A DNA stretch of 29,365 nt, taken from positions 1-29,365 of IMG/VR virus record IMGVR_UViG_3300023297_000067; one strand, given 5' to 3'. The position numbers were made by a program, and so were the translations under genes. Below are positions 9,940 to 29,365 of this stretch, piece after piece (positions within the stretch are counted from its first letter, which is position 1; every line of letters begins with the position of its first letter). This DNA comes from a virus. Under the pieces are notes generated by a model. That model was not told the DNA's origin, did not search any database, and was given only the letters and a program-made list of their open reading frames with translations.

Positions 9940-10833
9940 ATGAGTAAATCTTCTACAATAATCCGAGTTTTTCCGAGACGAACTAGTGCGACTCCCGTTG
10001 ATTCGTTAACGGTCATAAATAGGGGTCCAGGATTGGGTTTGGGTTATGATTTTGATGCAGTGGATGAGGTTCATGTTTCGTGTACGTTTACATGGGATTT
10101 ACCGCGCGCTCATTGGTTAGTAAGGCAATGGGGAAGAGTGGCTGATGTAAAATTAGGAGGCCCAGCATTAGATGCAAAGGGTGGTGAATTTGTTGTCGGT
10201 AGGTATCTCAAACCAGGATGTGTCATAACGTCGCGAGGCTGTCCTAATCATTGTTGGTTTTGTGCGGCGTGGAGACGAGAGGGGCGAAAAATAAGGGAAT
10301 TGGAAATTAAGGATGGATGGAATGTGTTTGACAACAATATTTTGGCGTGTTCTGAAAAACATGTTCGGAATGTGTTTAGGATGCTTCGACGGCAATCTGA
10401 ACCGATAGAATTTACAGGGGGTTTAGAGGCTAAGATTTTGCAGCGGTGGCATGCGAAGTTGCTTGCATCTATTCGATTTAATTCTGTGTATTTTGCTTAT
10501 GATACACCGGATGATTGGGAGCCTCTTGTTAATGCGTCTAAATTGCTACAATCTGTGTCTGGACTCAATTTTAATTCAGCTAAATCACTTTCAAGTTCAG
10601 ACATAATTTCGTACAAGTTTCGTTGTTATGTTCTTATCGGATATAAGAAAGATACGATTGAAAAAGCGGTGGATAGGTTGACGCGCACGTGTAAGTTAGG
10701 ATTCGTGCCGTTCGCTATGTTGTTTAATAAAGATATACAATCTGGGGAGTGGCGCGCAACTCAGCGGTTGTGGTCAGGAAACAAAAGGCAGGTATCAGCA
10801 AAATTCAAAAGTATATTAACAGGTGCACAATAA
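9940..10833 (+). CDS. Radical SAM protein
   Basis: The 297-residue protein carries ITSRGCPNHCWFCAAWRREG with C101, C105 and C108. This is the CX3CX2C motif that binds the [4Fe-4S] cluster and S-adenosylmethionine. GGLEA (160-164) is a plausible GGE-like SAM-contact motif and YFAYD (184-188) a core strand. The N-terminal VSCTFTWDLPRAHWL and VKLGGPALDAKGGEF recall B12-binding radical SAM proteins, but no full cobalamin domain fits. Similar short radical SAM proteins occur in phages with unknown substrates. It follows MuF by 59 bp and has a GGGATGGAA ribosome site. The cysteines are intact, so it is probably active. Confidence 0.85.
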   Translation: MSKSSTIIRVFPRRTSATPVDSLTVINRGPGLGLGYDFDAVDEVHVSCTFTWDLPRAHWLVRQWGRVADVKLGGPALDAKGGEFVVGRYLKPGCVITSRGCPNHCWFCAAWRREGRKIRELEIKDGWNVFDNNILACSEKHVRNVFRMLRRQSEPIEFTGGLEAKILQRWHAKLLASIRFNSVYFAYDTPDDWEPLVNASKLLQSVSGLNFNSAKSLSSSDIISYKFRCYVLIGYKKDTIEKAVDRLTRTCKLGFVPFAMLFNKDIQSGEWRATQRLWSGNKRQVSAKFKSILTGAQ

Positions 10834-11725: not shown

Positions 11726-12334
11726 ATGTTATCATTGCGACATTATGATGCAGTTAAAGCGGGTACGCTGAAAGAACCGCCATGGATGAAGAGGTTTCAC
11801 GTGCATTGGCCTGAATCGTCTGTGCGCTGTTGGCACATAGAGCGGTTTAATGTAGAGTTAAATATAGAAGCTTTGCTTTGCTATCGTGAGGGTAGGGGGA
11901 TGTTTCCGGGGAATTACACGCGTTTGGTACATGATATCAGAGGCGTTGTAATGAGTGACACTACAGCAGAAATCTGGGATATGAAACCCTTTTACGCATA
12001 TGCAAAAGGCCGAATTTTGATTCATGGTTTGGGATTGGGTTGTATGGTGAAGGCATTGCTATCAAAACAATCTGTCACACACATAGACGTTGTAGAGGTA
12101 AATAAGGATATCATTGATTTGGTGGGCAAGCATTTCAAAGATCCACGTGTAACTATTTATTGGGGTGATGCGTTTACATACAAGTGGCCTACGCAAACAA
12201 AGTGGGATTGCGTTTGGCATGATATTTGGGATACTATCAATTCAGATTACAAACCACAGATAACAACGCTGAAACGTAAGTTTGGGGGGCGTTGCCGTTT
12301 GCAGATGTCATGGTTGGATGAACTGATCGGATAG
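11726..12334 (+). CDS. SAM-dependent methyltransferase-like (spermidine-synthase fold) protein
   Basis: The 202-residue protein has a Rossmann methyltransferase core. Motif I is ILIHGLGLG (97-105), followed by an acidic end of strand 2, HIDVVEVNKD (119-128, E124), then VTIYWGDAF (142-150, D148) and CVWHDIWD (162-169). The last pattern resembles the catalytic region of spermidine/spermine synthase-like phage proteins. Family members bind SAM or decarboxylated SAM. The substrate cannot be determined. It belongs to the run after the radical SAM gene, so two SAM-using enzymes stand close together. Its stop overlaps the ribosome site of the following gene. Confidence 0.75.
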   Translation: MLSLRHYDAVKAGTLKEPPWMKRFHVHWPESSVRCWHIERFNVELNIEALLCYREGRGMFPGNYTRLVHDIRGVVMSDTTAEIWDMKPFYAYAKGRILIHGLGLGCMVKALLSKQSVTHIDVVEVNKDIIDLVGKHFKDPRVTIYWGDAFTYKWPTQTKWDCVWHDIWDTINSDYKPQITTLKRKFGGRCRLQMSWLDELIG

Positions 12335-14267: not shown

Positions 14268-15242
14268 ATGTCAAAACGTTTGAAAGCCCCATTTCCGTAT
14301 TTTGGTGGTAAAGCTACAGTCGCCTCTGTGGTTTGGAAGGCTCTGGGTAATGTGGGGCATTATCTGGAGCCTTTTTGTGGTTCGTGTGCTATCTTGTTAG
14401 CAAGGCCACGTTGGAATTCACAGCGCCATGTAGAAACTGTCGTAGACAAGGACGGTCATATAGCTAATGTATGGCGCAGCTTGCAATCCAATCCGGATGA
14501 AGTAGCTAAGTGGTGTGATTGGCCGGTTAATCATGCAGATCTGATTGCACGTAAACGCAAGCTCAATCTTAATACGGAAACATTGTTGGAACGATTATGT
14601 GCCGATGATGAGTATTACGATTCCAAGTTGGCTGGGTATTACATATGGGCTGCTTCCTGTTGGATTGGGCATGGTTTGATTTGTCCGGGTCAGAGACCTC
14701 ATTTGGTTAAAAGTGCGGGCGTGCATGCTAAGGGTCAGAGACTACATTTGGCTTCTACTGGTAAGGGCGTACAAGAACCTTACAACACGCCAATTTATGA
14801 ATGGTTTCGGAAATTGAGTGAACGTTTGCGAAACGTCCGAGTGGTTTGTGGTGATTGGTCGCGTGTTTGTGGTGGCGATTGGCAACATCAAGTATCGCCT
14901 GCATCACCTGTAGGTATTTTTTTCGATCCACCTTACAGTGATGTGGCTGATCGTCGTGCAGGGATTTATGCTGTGGACAGTCTCCAAGTGGCCCATGATG
15001 TAAGGCATTGGTGTTTGAAGCGAGGTAGTCGTAAGAAATACCGTATTATTTTGGCTGGTTATTACGATGAACATAAGGAGTTGTTGCAACATGGATGGTG
15101 TGTGCATCGTTGGAAGGCTGGTGGTGGTTATGGGAATATTTCAGGCAAAAAGCAAACACGAGGCAAAACCAATAGGCATAAAGAGTGTTTGTTTTTAAGC
15201 CCCAACTGCCTGCGTTCCAAAGGCTTGTTAGATTTGCATTAA
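14268..15242 (+). CDS. dam: D12-class DNA adenine methyltransferase
   Basis: The 324-residue protein has the D12/Dam motif set: PFPYFGGKA (8-16), the SAM-binding EPFCGSCAI (34-42), and catalytic DPPYSD (220-225). The layout matches Dam-type N6-adenine methylases, which methylate short sites such as GATC and protect phage DNA from restriction or alter regulation. The target site cannot be read from the sequence. The middle (about 140-170) contains a small internal repeat (GQRPHLVKS and GQRLHLAST). No partner endonuclease is adjacent, so it is a solitary methylase. All key motifs are intact. Confidence 0.9.
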   Translation: MSKRLKAPFPYFGGKATVASVVWKALGNVGHYLEPFCGSCAILLARPRWNSQRHVETVVDKDGHIANVWRSLQSNPDEVAKWCDWPVNHADLIARKRKLNLNTETLLERLCADDEYYDSKLAGYYIWAASCWIGHGLICPGQRPHLVKSAGVHAKGQRLHLASTGKGVQEPYNTPIYEWFRKLSERLRNVRVVCGDWSRVCGGDWQHQVSPASPVGIFFDPPYSDVADRRAGIYAVDSLQVAHDVRHWCLKRGSRKKYRIILAGYYDEHKELLQHGWCVHRWKAGGGYGNISGKKQTRGKTNRHKECLFLSPNCLRSKGLLDLH

Positions 15243-15624
15243 CGAGCAAGCGATAATATAGGTAGATACAAGGATGTAGGTTTTGACGATCAAGGAGGCA
15301 AAAGTTAATAGAGGTGCTGGCGTCAATAATTATTTTGCTAAAATGGATTGGGTCGTTAATTGTTGTCTTACAGGCCAGCACCTCTATTTGACAAGTGAAT
15401 ATTTCAGTCTATGCGACTGGTTGCCGCACCTTGCTAAAACCGGATTTCGATATATTGCTTTGGTTGGCTTGAAACACCCACTATGTGATGTTATCGGTTC
15501 GCGTACAGAAACTAGGCAACCAGTCTCATTTTTGACTCCTCCGAGGAACTGGGAGGCTTATAAACCTCCGCACACCTGTCTCCAGATAAGTTCTCCCGGT
15601 TTCCTTTTACGAAAGGCGGTACGT
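15243..15624 (+). ncRNA. Highly structured non-coding leader, candidate structured RNA
   Basis: This 382-bp stretch before the secreted-protein gene has nested inverted repeats. A perfect 15-bp stem pairs 15307-15321 (AATAGAGGTGCTGGC) with 15374-15388. Inside it, 15324-15332 pairs with 15357-15365 (9 bp, one G-U), topped by a TTTT-GCT-AAAA tip. An 11-bp stem pairs 15415-15425 (GACTGGTTGCC) with 15515-15525. GGAGG/CCTCC around 15557-15574 and CCTTT-TACG-AAAGG at about 15603-15616 follow; the last hides the ribosome site of the next gene. A reading frame open from 15283 crosses this region, but its translation looks random. It fits no riboswitch or ribozyme class I can recognise by eye. Confidence 0.55.
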
Positions 15625-16209
15625 ATGAAATATCGATTAATTGGATTCGTGTTTGTTTTCGTGGTTGGTGTATTGCCTGGGATTTTAGCGGTAACAACAC
15701 CAATCAAGGCAAATGAAGCTGATGAGGATACGACGTGTGTGCAGGTGTTTTTGGAGATACCCTCAAACATCGATCCAAACCTAGTGCCCATTGATCCTGA
15801 ATCTGGTCGGCGTTTGTATCTGGGTGTATGTGATGCTTATGCTGGACAGGATTTGGTGATTCGGGGACGTGCTTGCGACCCAAACACACAACAAACAGTT
15901 ACATTGTATTATTACGATAGTGGTGAATCAATCCCGTTGAATGAGCATGGTGACTATACGATTGTATATCAGTGTGCGACAACGGGAGTATTCCCGCTAA
16001 CGTTGATAGTTACAGACGACCATCCCGATCAGAAATCATGTGTGGGCACTTGGATTGTACGGGTGCATACAGAGAACAGGCCCCCAGTACTTACGTTGCA
16101 AACATCTACAGCGCGGATGCGCCTGAAGCAAAAAGCGTTGATGGAGTTGGCTAAGCGTGAAGGTACGCATGTGTTGAGACGTCGAGGATACGTTCTCGTT
16201 TCCCAATAA
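15625..16209 (+). CDS. Secreted protein with N-terminal signal peptide
   Basis: I start at the ATG at 15625, with AAAGGCGG upstream; the signal peptide then sits at the N-terminus as expected. The 194 residues begin MKYRLIGFVFVFVVGVLPGI with likely cleavage after PIKANEA. The mature region has four or more cysteines and a strand-rich, Ig-like look (QTVTLYYYDSGESIPLNEHG, WIVRVHTENRPPVLTL). The 'N-R-P-P-V-L' phrase usually opens an Ig/cadherin-like domain, but here a basic helix (RLKQKALMELAKREG) follows. A frame open 114 codons further upstream is rejected. Function unknown. Confidence 0.6.
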   Translation: MKYRLIGFVFVFVVGVLPGILAVTTPIKANEADEDTTCVQVFLEIPSNIDPNLVPIDPESGRRLYLGVCDAYAGQDLVIRGRACDPNTQQTVTLYYYDSGESIPLNEHGDYTIVYQCATTGVFPLTLIVTDDHPDQKSCVGTWIVRVHTENRPPVLTLQTSTARMRLKQKALMELAKREGTHVLRRRGYVLVSQ

Positions 16210-16229: not shown

Positions 16230-16288
16230 GGGAGCGGCAGACCAGCTTTGATTTATGTCTATTGAAGATACGATGCCGCTCCCTTTTT
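16230..16288 (+). terminator. Rho-independent-like terminator with a long loop
   Basis: GGGAGCGGCA (16230-16239) and TGCCGCTCCC (16274-16283) are a perfect 10-bp inverted repeat, followed directly by TTTTT (16284-16288). The 34-base loop is longer than usual. It lies 20 bp after the secreted-protein stop and ends that transcription unit plausibly. Confidence 0.65.
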
Positions 16289-16315
16289 GGTTTAATTTCG
16301 ATCAAGGAGAATAAA

Positions 16316-16486
16316 ATGAACGTGTGGCTTGTTAAACGACATTTGGAAAACATATATTTGAATCAGTATCATGGATGGACACGGAATATAAACCATGCCC
16401 GCACGTTTCCGACCAGACGCGCAGCACGATACGTCAGTCGTGGTACCCCAATAAAAGCAACAGTCACCATACGGGAAAGAGGATAA
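16316..16486 (+). CDS. Unknown 56-residue basic protein
   Basis: The ATG at 16316 has AAGGAGAA upstream. The protein starts MNVWLVKRHLENIYLNQYHG and continues with NHARTFPTRRAARYVSRG, a pattern (H-A-R-x-F-x-T-R-x-A-A) seen in small phage proteins of unknown function. Strongly basic and without Cys. An in-frame extension from 16226 runs through the terminator and is not used. It precedes the next gene by one base. Confidence 0.55.
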   Translation: MNVWLVKRHLENIYLNQYHGWTRNINHARTFPTRRAARYVSRGTPIKATVTIRERG

Positions 16487-21255: not shown

Positions 21256-21626
21256 TCAAGTTTCCTGATTAGACGTTGGTTGATGTCTAGGAGATACGAA
21301 TCTTCTAATACGTTCCATATATCGGTTATTTGGTACATGGACTTTAGCTTTAAGCTAGATAGTTAAGATTTTTTACGTTTCAGCCCTATTACGCATAATA
21401 TATAAGCCCCTAGCATCCCACGTAACAGCCTAACTCCTTTCCTCCTACCCCATAATACCCCCTAACGATTTCACGCCCTTATACGTAAGATTTTGGTATT
21501 TCTCAGCGCTTTAATATGTACGCGCGTAAGGGCCATGCGAAATTTATAGATTTGGGATGCAACAGGCGGTAAATTTTAAGCTGACGCTTGGTACGATTGG
21601 GATTGATTTATATAGGAGATGATACG
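21256..21626. promoter_or_regulatory. 371-bp gene-free region between divergent units
   Basis: The leftward lysozyme-like gene and the rightward capsid operon start from this region. TAGCTT (21345-21350) and AAGCTA (21352-21357) form a palindrome around one base, a possible operator. GCCCTTA near 21476 and TAAGGGC near 21527 form a longer-range inverted repeat. TTTACG (21372-21377) and TAATAT (21396-21401), 18 bp apart, could be a rightward promoter. I see no tRNA or coding frame with a convincing ribosome site until 21627. Confidence 0.45.
21372..21401 (+). promoter_or_regulatory. Putative promoter of the capsid operon
   Basis: TTTACG and TAATAT with an 18-bp spacer approximate the sigma70 consensus (TTGACA and TATAAT). 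The match is moderate and the leader to 21627 would be long (about 220 bases). A phage-specific promoter is equally possible. Confidence 0.3.
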
Positions 21627-23090
21627 ATGCTCAAAAATTCAGCAACGATGGGCAAAACGTTTCATCGCGTTGTCTGCAATCTCAAACCAAAGGACATGAG
21701 GCTAGATAACTTACAGGGTAAAGAATATCTGGTTGTGCCTATGGTTATGCTACTGGAGGGGGTACACAACGGAAGCGAAGGGGCATATTTCTATCCTGCC
21801 AAAGAACTCAAGAAGCGCCCCATGATGTGGAATTCTAAACCCATTGTGGTTTATCATCCCAGTGAGCCTAGTGCCTGCTCCCCTTTGGTTCTCAATACGC
21901 GTGGTATCGGTACTATCATGAACACCAAATGCGTAAAAGGCAAACTGTCTGCTGAAGCTTGGTTGGATAAGGACCGGGTGGAATTGATTGATAATCGTAT
22001 TTCGGATGCTATCACAAAGAAAGAAATATTGGAGGTGTCTACCGGGTTGTTTGCTGATAGTGACGAGACTCCAGGTGTGTGGAATGATGAAGAGTATCAG
22101 GGCACACTATCTAATATCGGCCCTGATCATCTAGCTATTCTGCCGGATCAAATTGGTGCGTGTTCTGTTGAGGATGGTGCTGGGTTATATCGTAACCAAG
22201 CCAATGAGAAAATACATATTTCCCCAGCTTGGTTAAAACGATTTGAAAACGAACAGTCGTCTAACGAGTTGCGGACTGCTTTGAACGAAGCCATCTATAA
22301 GGATGGTGAATACAATTGGGTGGAAGATGTTTTTGATACGTACTTTATCTATTCCACAGATAATGGCAACAAATTGTTCAAGCGTGATTTCAAGGCCGAT
22401 GGTGATGTTATCACATTAGAAGGGTTGCCGGAGGAGGTGGTCCGAAAAATAAGTTATCCCGTAGCGAATGTAAACGTACACAACAAAAATGAAGTTGCTA
22501 ATTTGAAAGGGAGTACAATGGATCGCACAAAAGCGATTAATAGTCTCATCGCCAATAAAGCAACCCAGTGGGAGGAAGATGACCGTGAGTTTCTTAATGG
22601 GTTGAAGGATGAGCAGCTGGAGAAATTGGAGCCTGTGAAAAACGAGGAGAAAGAGACCAAGCCCAAAGCTAAGCCCGAAGCCAAGCCCGACGTGATTGAC
22701 GATAAGGTGGAAAATAAGGAGACGCCGAAAGTCGAACCGCAAACGGATGAGGAGTATCTAAACTCTATGCCCCCGGCATTTCGCAAGCGCTGGGAAACAC
22801 TCGTTCATAACGAGGAGGCCGAGAAGGATCGGCTCATTGATATCATCACCAAGAACGAAAAGAGTAAGTTTACTCCGGAATGGCTCAAGACGCAGGATGT
22901 TGAGATGCTACAAAATCTTGCCGTTCTGGCCAAAGACGAAATCACGGATACCCAAGACAACGTGCCAAATGTACTGCGTTTCAACTATGAAGGGCAGGGT
23001 GATCCCGTAGCCAACGGCGATACATCGAACGTGCCGAAGTTGGGTTTGCCTGTGACGTTCGACCAGAAGAAAGCGGAAAAGACAGCTTAG
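21627..23090 (+). CDS. Prohead protease with fused scaffold (DUF2213-like)
   Basis: The ATG at 21627 has AGGAGAT upstream, giving 487 residues. The N-terminal half resembles DUF2213 phage proteases: PIVVYHPSEP carries H77, EVSTGLFAD carries S138, and NIGPDHLAILPD follows. These fit the catalytic His/Ser pair of this protease fold. The C-terminal part (from about 298) is charged and helical with a K/E/P tract (KNEEKETKPKAKPEAKPDV), typical of a scaffold. The protein would guide and then mature the capsid. It opens the head operon that includes the decoration and capsid genes. The sequence is intact. Confidence 0.85.
   Translation: MLKNSATMGKTFHRVVCNLKPKDMRLDNLQGKEYLVVPMVMLLEGVHNGSEGAYFYPAKELKKRPMMWNSKPIVVYHPSEPSACSPLVLNTRGIGTIMNTKCVKGKLSAEAWLDKDRVELIDNRISDAITKKEILEVSTGLFADSDETPGVWNDEEYQGTLSNIGPDHLAILPDQIGACSVEDGAGLYRNQANEKIHISPAWLKRFENEQSSNELRTALNEAIYKDGEYNWVEDVFDTYFIYSTDNGNKLFKRDFKADGDVITLEGLPEEVVRKISYPVANVNVHNKNEVANLKGSTMDRTKAINSLIANKATQWEEDDREFLNGLKDEQLEKLEPVKNEEKETKPKAKPEAKPDVIDDKVENKETPKVEPQTDEEYLNSMPPAFRKRWETLVHNEEAEKDRLIDIITKNEKSKFTPEWLKTQDVEMLQNLAVLAKDEITDTQDNVPNVLRFNYEGQGDPVANGDTSNVPKLGLPVTFDQKKAEKTA
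22518..23090 (+). CDS. Nested in-frame scaffold protein start
   Basis: Inside the protease gene, AAAGGGAG (22506-22513) lies four bases before an ATG at 22518, in the same frame. From it a 190-residue protein (MDRTKAINSLIANKATQWEE) comprising exactly the helical, charged scaffold portion would be made. This parallels lambda C/Nu3, in which the scaffold is made separately from an internal start. The ribosome site is one of the best in the operon, and it lies just at the domain boundary. Only the internal start is predicted; the domain is the same sequence as the host gene's C-terminus. Confidence 0.5.
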   Translation: MDRTKAINSLIANKATQWEEDDREFLNGLKDEQLEKLEPVKNEEKETKPKAKPEAKPDVIDDKVENKETPKVEPQTDEEYLNSMPPAFRKRWETLVHNEEAEKDRLIDIITKNEKSKFTPEWLKTQDVEMLQNLAVLAKDEITDTQDNVPNVLRFNYEGQGDPVANGDTSNVPKLGLPVTFDQKKAEKTA

Positions 23091-28114: not shown

Positions 28115-29365
28115 ATGCCTATCTTCGCTCCATCCAAATTGGTTCTCCCCGGCACTGATGGTCTCGTCGGCCTGTGGGACCCGTCTATCCAGGGAGCGGG
28201 CGGAACAAAGCTTGTCGATCTGAGCGGGTATAATTCGCATGGAACGTTTGGCACGTCTTCGGATGTGTCATGGGAAACGACTTCGCGGGGTGTCTCGCTT
28301 TACTTCGATGGTTCCTCAGTCGGCGTTAGCGGTGTCCCCAAGAATCTCACAGGATATCCGTTCTCAGTTTCATTGTGGACGCGATCGACTGCAACGACGT
28401 GGTCAACTTTGTTCTGGATGGGGGATGGCACTAGGACTGACAAGATGTTCGTTGTATGGTTTCGGAATGTCTCCGGCCATATAACGATTTCCGCCAGAAA
28501 TGCAAGTGAGAAGTACACTGCTTCCACCAACGCATTCAACGATGGGAACTGGCATCACGTCGTGGCCGTGTTTGCTACGGCGACTGATAGGCGTCTTTAC
28601 GTGGACGGCAATTTAGAGGCGTCCAATGCGTCTTCAGTCCCGTTCATTACATCGATGAACAAGTGGACGCTTGGCCTTGCCGGTGACTCGTCCCCCGGTG
28701 CTGCATACGAAGGGCACTTGGATTCTGTCTCGCTCTATAATTGCGAGCTTAGCCCTTCTGTAATCCGTAGTTTCTACCGCGATTCCCGCCAGATGTTCCG
28801 CCGCGAGCCCATCGAGTTCTGGGGGGCGTTGGTCGGCAGTGGTGGGACATCCCAGGCTTTAGCGGGAGTAATTGCAGCTCAAGCGGCTGTGACTGGTTCT
28901 ATGTCTCTTGCGGCATCGTTAGCGGGGTCTACAGCAGCCGTATCCACTGTCTCAGCTGCGATCTCGGTCGGTATGGGTATATCTGGCCTTATTACGGGTA
29001 CAACGGCTCTAACAGGCCGTGTGGCGGTTGTACGGGGTATCAGTGGAGCTATCGCGGCGGTTACAACCGTTTCGGGCGGTTTAACCGTTGCTCGAAACAT
29101 ACAAGGAGCAATAGCAAGTCAATCGGTCGTCAGTGGTTCACTTTCAACAGATAAAAAGTTGGCAGGATTAACGACAGTTCAATCTGTCGTAAGTGGTTCG
29201 CTTTCAACAGATAAAAAGTTGGCAGGATTAACGACAGTTCAATCGGTCGTCAGTGGTTCACTTTCAACAGATAAAAAGTTGGCAGGATTAACGACAGTTC
29301 AATCTGTCGTAAGTGGTTCGCTTTCAACAGATAAAAAGTTGGCAGGATTAACGACAGTTCAATCG
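28115..29365 (+). CDS. LamG-domain fibre protein with tandem repeats (partial, runs off the right edge)
   Basis: The frame from the ATG at 28115 is open to the right edge (417 codons). Residues about 10-230 look like a LamG/concanavalin-A-type module: GLVGLWDPSIQGAGG, LYFDGSSVGVSG, FSVSLWTRST, NDGNWHHVVAVF, RRLYVDGNLEAS and GHLDSVSLYN. From codon 249 the sequence is made of 20-residue repeats. LamG modules bind carbohydrates, so host-surface recognition is likely. The ribosome site is weak. By eye the DNA is G+C-richer in the LamG part and A+T-richer in the perfect repeats. Confidence 0.8.
   Translation, partial: MPIFAPSKLVLPGTDGLVGLWDPSIQGAGGTKLVDLSGYNSHGTFGTSSDVSWETTSRGVSLYFDGSSVGVSGVPKNLTGYPFSVSLWTRSTATTWSTLFWMGDGTRTDKMFVVWFRNVSGHITISARNASEKYTASTNAFNDGNWHHVVAVFATATDRRLYVDGNLEASNASSVPFITSMNKWTLGLAGDSSPGAAYEGHLDSVSLYNCELSPSVIRSFYRDSRQMFRREPIEFWGALVGSGGTSQALAGVIAAQAAVTGSMSLAASLAGSTAAVSTVSAAISVGMGISGLITGTTALTGRVAVVRGISGAIAAVTTVSGGLTVARNIQGAIASQSVVSGSLSTDKKLAGLTTVQSVVSGSLSTDKKLAGLTTVQSVVSGSLSTDKKLAGLTTVQSVVSGSLSTDKKLAGLTTVQS
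28859..29365 (+). repeat. 60-bp coding repeats with 120-bp higher-order period
   Basis: Eight complete 60-bp units and part of a ninth are in frame. The first four are diverged (for example LAGVIAAQAAVTGSMSLAAS) and the fifth is transitional. The later ones are identical in protein (LAGLTTVQSVVSGSLSTDKK). From 29123 on, units of phase TCG-GTC-GTC...TCA and TCT-GTC-GTA...TCG alternate. They differ only at three third-codon positions, all synonymous, and the array continues beyond the window. Confidence 0.9.

Follow-up and report, generated by a model that had tools for sequence, protein, structure and literature searches.

The hairpins upstream of a gene for a predicted secreted protein form an RNA leader of ~355 nt, which lies between the stop of a methyltransferase gene (15242) and the ATG at 15625 in the window, the window being the whole 29,365-base record of an uncultured virus analysed here, which carries terminase, portal and major capsid genes. 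The comparison of two versions of the sequence makes a structured leader well supported, and its repression of translation is moderately supported. Overall, the preferred reading is the structured 5' leader of a phage cassette with one gene, a leader that probably holds down the translation start, and to this reading a probability of about 0.58 is given. In a preliminary description the region was suggested to fold as an RNA of ~340 bases, being either a non-coding RNA or a cis control element. The folded RNA is supported by compensated stems in one homologous leader, with two distinct sequences in all, and the evidence leans towards a cis-acting leader.

Features of the leader and its surroundings (positions in the window unless another contig is named; L004 is the locus of the diverged relative, G001 and G002 are phage contigs)
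Feature	Position	Strand	Remarks
D12-type DNA methyltransferase-like gene	14268-15242		stop at 15242; 5' neighbour of leader
Promoter-like box GCGATAATATAGGTAGATA	15250-15268	+	identical 19 nt in relative, L004 4644-4662
Box-to-P1 stretch	15269-15303	+	~35 nt; missing from relative (alignment)
P1 hairpin	15304-15392	+	15-bp perfect core, outward extension to 18 bp
Linker TATTTGACAARTGAATATTTCAGTCT	15385-15410	+	25/26 nt conserved in relative
P2 hairpin	15411-15529	+	arms 15411-15425 x 15515-15529
P3 hairpin	15543-15606	+	arms 15543-15561 x 15586-15606; short T run after
P4 hairpin, CCTTT-TACG-AAAGG	15603-15616	+	over Shine-Dalgarno-like GAAAGG, 15611-15616; relative has CCTTTTATGAAAGG, L004 4978-4991
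Predicted secreted protein, 194 aa	15625-16209	+	ATG at 15625; downstream of leader; 83% identical in relative
Intrinsic terminator, GGGAGCGGCA ... TGCCGCTCCC TTTTT	16230-16285	+	same place in relative, one compensated pair
GCGATAATATNNGTAG sites, window	8668, 15250, 17865
GCGATAATATNNGTAG sites, G001	53560, 54602, 57755, 65657, 37970(-), 35136(-)
GCGATAATATNNGTAG sites, G002	7303(-), 1890(-)

Hairpins of the leader

The 15-bp perfect stem noted earlier (15307-15321 x 15374-15388) is the core of P1, which encloses a 52-nt loop with an inner 9-bp stem; these inner 9 bp (15324-15332 x 15357-15365) can be found in the window as described, but are not kept as such in the diverged relative. The 11-bp stem that follows (15415-15425 x 15515-15525) is also present and, when widened to 15411-15529, has 14 of 15 possible pairs, giving P2, with a loop of 89 nt that has a variable internal stem of its own. 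The GGAGG/CCTCC hairpin (15552-15569) exists in the window and sits inside P3 as a competing hairpin, but it is not conserved and is displaced by P3 in the full-leader fold, where P3 has a mean pair probability of 0.92. There is a further hint, from inspection, that the P3 5' arm may pair instead with a conserved TGTCTCC in the P3 loop, in both phages. The small TACG-loop hairpin said to cover the ribosome site is P4, found where it was described. The linker, which includes TTGACAARTGAATATTTCAGTC, has two options, a small bulged hairpin or a helix of 8 nt in which its ATATTTCA pairs with the TGAAATAT that lies at the start codon.

The folding of this region is stronger than its composition would give, the 342-nt segment having a minimum free energy of -110 kcal/mol against -88 +/- 5 for shuffled sequences (22 better; z -4.3; 0 of 100 shuffles as stable). 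Among ~390 tiles of 200 nt taken from both strands, excess stability is highest for that at 15301. The window has five perfect stems of at least 11 bp with loops of up to 150 nt, where shuffles have 0-2, and of the five a pair adjoin each other in the leader.

The stretch of ~35 nt that is particular to the window holds an AAGGAGG that resembles an RBS but lacks a start codon, similar to the RBS at 16299; at 15287-15308 the insertion carries CGATCAAGGAGGCAAAAGTTAA, which is close to the RBS (16299-16320) of the gene at 16317, and CGATCAAGGAGGCAAAAGTTAA in front of P1 is possibly the relic of a gene start.

The 194-aa protein encoded downstream has a hydrophobic N-terminus resembling a signal peptide, it has no match in Pfam, PHROG or NCBIfam, and its AlphaFold model is poor (pLDDT 35.5). 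Elsewhere among the structural genes there are two genes with weak enzyme matches, 9940-10833 resembling radical SAM enzymes and 11726-12334 polyamine aminopropyltransferases. The right end of the window (29099-29365) matches several overlapping places at G001 21485-22063, so that this end of the record is a repeat array. In the relative the methyltransferase gene (L004 3900-4200) is expanded by tandem in-frame repeats of GVHAKGQRPNLANAGK, with fewer repeat units in the window (14687-14760).

Comparison with a diverged relative

The same leader is found letter for letter in IMGVR_UViG_3300031227_000125, which shares 99.9% identity with the window across 29 kb, and in IMGVR_UViG_3300023251_000021, both from IMG/VR. 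A single diverged relative with the leader was detected, IMGVR_UViG_3300033145_001721, with 83% identity to the window in the secreted protein, 90% in the portal and 93% in the capsid, thus all comparison of the leader is between two distinct sequences. A search for the secreted protein in IMG/VR and genome contigs gave only near-identical window records and this one relative, and no close relatives by DNA or protein were found among sequenced phages. Using the methyltransferase, portal, capsid and a holin-like neighbour as anchors brought up further phages but no other version of the leader. In total five anchor proteins, two DNA patterns and two covariance models were used as queries and a third version was absent; the covariance models (P1 with linker; P3) run on 389 kb of related loci recovered just the two known versions, and no second copy of the element occurs elsewhere in the window phage or its relative.

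Both phages have the same order of box, P1, linker, P2, P3, P4 with the ribosome site, secreted-protein gene and terminator. Almost every letter is conserved in the box, the linker and the P2 stem, and likewise in the 3' arm of P3 and in P4 together with the ribosome site and start; the P1 and P2 loops have diverged. The P1 arms are AATAGAGGTGCTGGC/GCCAGCACCTCTATT in the window and GGATGCTGAATTGC/GCAATTCAGCATCC in the relative, where they pair perfectly over 14 bp (up to 22 predicted), so that perfect pairing is present in both despite the different sequence.

The preliminary description had set compensatory change in the long stems as its test, and with n=2 sequences P1, P2 and P3 are found to pair through 18 substitutions. 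Across 42 compared pairs 41 form in the relative, with five double changes, six one-sided changes that keep pairing, one terminal pair broken and one pair gained; random placements of the same substitutions matched the observed pairing in 0 of 200,000 trials. Three of the compensatory double changes lie in P1, the 5' arm of which was placed in register by hand, since ~35 extra nt lie in front of it in the window. The P2 stem contributes one double change, one one-sided change, one gained pair and the lost terminal pair, whilst in P3 all 14 compared pairs are kept through one double and four one-sided changes with none broken. Using P2 and P3 alone in an alignment blind to structure the result is still p = 0.0005. 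For P3 the intended register is 100% paired and sliding the partners by 1-3 columns leaves 32-61%, a comparison for which the shuffle control of the tool is powerless with two sequences. Four of the P3 changes retain pairing by means of G-U, therefore an RNA from the + strand is favoured. What would be expected of a structured cis-acting leader, compensated structure and the same downstream gene in both phages, is thus found.

Transcription unit and translation start

The motif GCGATAATATNNGTAG, allowing up to 2 mismatches, occurs 3, 7 and 6 times in three phage records compared with 0-2 times in shuffles, and its sites mostly lie no more than ~50 nt upstream of the start of an ORF on the same strand. 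The sites have no obvious -35 box and probably represent the phage's own class of promoter. The TTGACA of the linker was considered as a -35 box, it has no -10 at 16-18 nt on inspection and was unlisted by the scan. Of the listed sites, that at 15250 is the only one separated from the conserved gene that follows by ~350 nt of structured sequence that is not translated. The start of the RNA is inferred to lie at ~15262-15270, just past the box. At the other end the terminator has an unusually long loop, as does that of the relative, which has only four U. The box and the conserved terminator that enclose leader and gene therefore suggest a promoter-leader-gene-terminator unit.

Transcription would start just past the box and continue into the secreted-protein gene. 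As P4 covers the Shine-Dalgarno in both phages and the linker can pair over the start codon, the translation start would then be held down, until the leader is opened by some factor, by temperature or by co-transcriptional timing. P1, as the first element past the promoter, probably also shields the 5' end of the RNA. The 8-nt match of ATATTTCA and TGAAATAT is the longest of 24 gene starts compared (others 4-7) and this linker-start pairing is invariant in the two phages; it appears in the relative's ensemble fold, and in the window the linker prefers the small local hairpin. The predicted probability that the Shine-Dalgarno is unpaired is 0.30 for the leader gene in the window against 0.05-0.87 for other genes, and 0.03 in the relative. 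The ordinary predicted access to the ribosome site in the window makes the step of translation control the weak one in this scheme.

An extension of the scheme, which is rather unlikely, is that the ~350-nt leader belongs to a new class of phage regulatory RNA, in which an invariant linker over the start codon and P3 with its competing hairpins form a switch, so that synthesis of the exported protein would be confined to a particular signal or infection stage.

Alternative explanations

A stand-alone non-coding RNA of ~340 nt, with P3 and the UUUU after it as a terminator or attenuator and the gene reached by read-through, is possible though doubtful. P3, to which alternative helices exist, does have an 18-bp stem with a G+C-rich middle and then UUUU in both phages, the terminator of the gene in the relative shares the long-loop type with just four U, and the strong structure with P1 at the 5' end would be consistent with such an RNA. 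However, this U tract is short, P4 and the ribosome site adjoin P3, and the leader is directly 5' of the same gene in every known copy. A simple terminator scan listed nothing between box and ATG, P3 included, although the scan allows loops of 3-8 only and because of this misses the terminator of the secreted-protein gene as well. It is improbable that the element acts as DNA, whether as a site of recombination, replication or packaging or as palindromes kept perfect by template-switch repair. The cores of P1 and P2 are almost all Watson-Crick pairs, the over-stability is seen on both strands, and the P1 arms vary in length and sequence between the phages as repair of quasi-palindromes could yield, but the changes in P3 pass through G-U, and these positions would be mismatched in DNA or on the opposite strand. 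Furthermore, the position is exactly between promoter-like box and ribosome site and no repeat copy occurs elsewhere in either phage.

The frame from 15283, for which protein conservation would have spoken against a folded RNA, is open in the window into the gene and could extend the secreted protein at its N-terminus, or encode a leader peptide from the ATG at 15343, with peptide ends (QH-YLT-EYFSL) that are similar in both phages by eye. Yet in the relative a TGA just past the linker breaks this frame, which is not that of the gene, and the conserved P2 block falls there in a different frame with respect to the gene; conservation of protein is thus absent, with the blocks in differing frames. 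Neither ATG is preceded by a ribosome site, the third positions of the linker are conserved in 8 of 8 cases against 69% identical in the gene, and there is no match in Pfam. Coding is therefore the least credible of these explanations, and very improbable.

Comparison with known RNAs and phage loci

No match to Rfam 15 was found in the window at gathering thresholds, and, in agreement with the earlier failure to match the element to a riboswitch or ribozyme, no such model came near threshold in either phage. The best sub-threshold model was RF01798 (g2) on P3, with 25.1 bits in the window and 19.1 in the relative against a gathering score of 70 (E values 0.04 and 0.9), which from its name we take to be the sRNA G2 of M. 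tuberculosis. The alignment is full-length in both phages and the arms are similar. The score is far below gathering and conservation of G2 is reported from the M. tuberculosis complex only (PMC2764107), the match is thus most likely due to chance.

The GOLLD and ROOL RNAs are likewise large folded RNAs in phage genomes (PMC12286853). GOLLD is often >800 nt and found near tRNA islands (PMC12286853), whereas the leader directly precedes a gene and differs in size and setting. The covariance models of GOLLD and ROOL gave no match on the window, which also has no tRNA.

As one gene placed among structural genes between its own promoter-like box and a terminator, and with a predicted exported product, the unit resembles the moron or accessory loci of phages that have their own promoter (PMC7067206). 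Unlike in those loci, the box of the leader is common to other genes of the phage, therefore lysogenic expression of the unit is not required. The finding reveals a promoter-like box that recurs in this group of phages, and with it a self-contained cassette for a predicted exported protein. Should the leader gate translation, it would offer a compact case of RNA folding controlling phage genes; should it instead be an RNA of its own, it would add a new non-coding RNA to those of phages.

To our knowledge it is uncommon for a large structured leader of a phage genome to have compensatory changes behind it. Structured 5' leaders that mask the ribosome site include RNA thermometers and the protein- or ligand-controlled leaders of bacterial and phage genes. 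The leader described here shares with them the arrangement of promoter, folded leader, hairpin over the Shine-Dalgarno and gene, but differs in its strong P1 and P2 stems, long variable loops and invariant linker, with no Rfam model at threshold. It is therefore new to the RNA library searched, yet of a known general kind.
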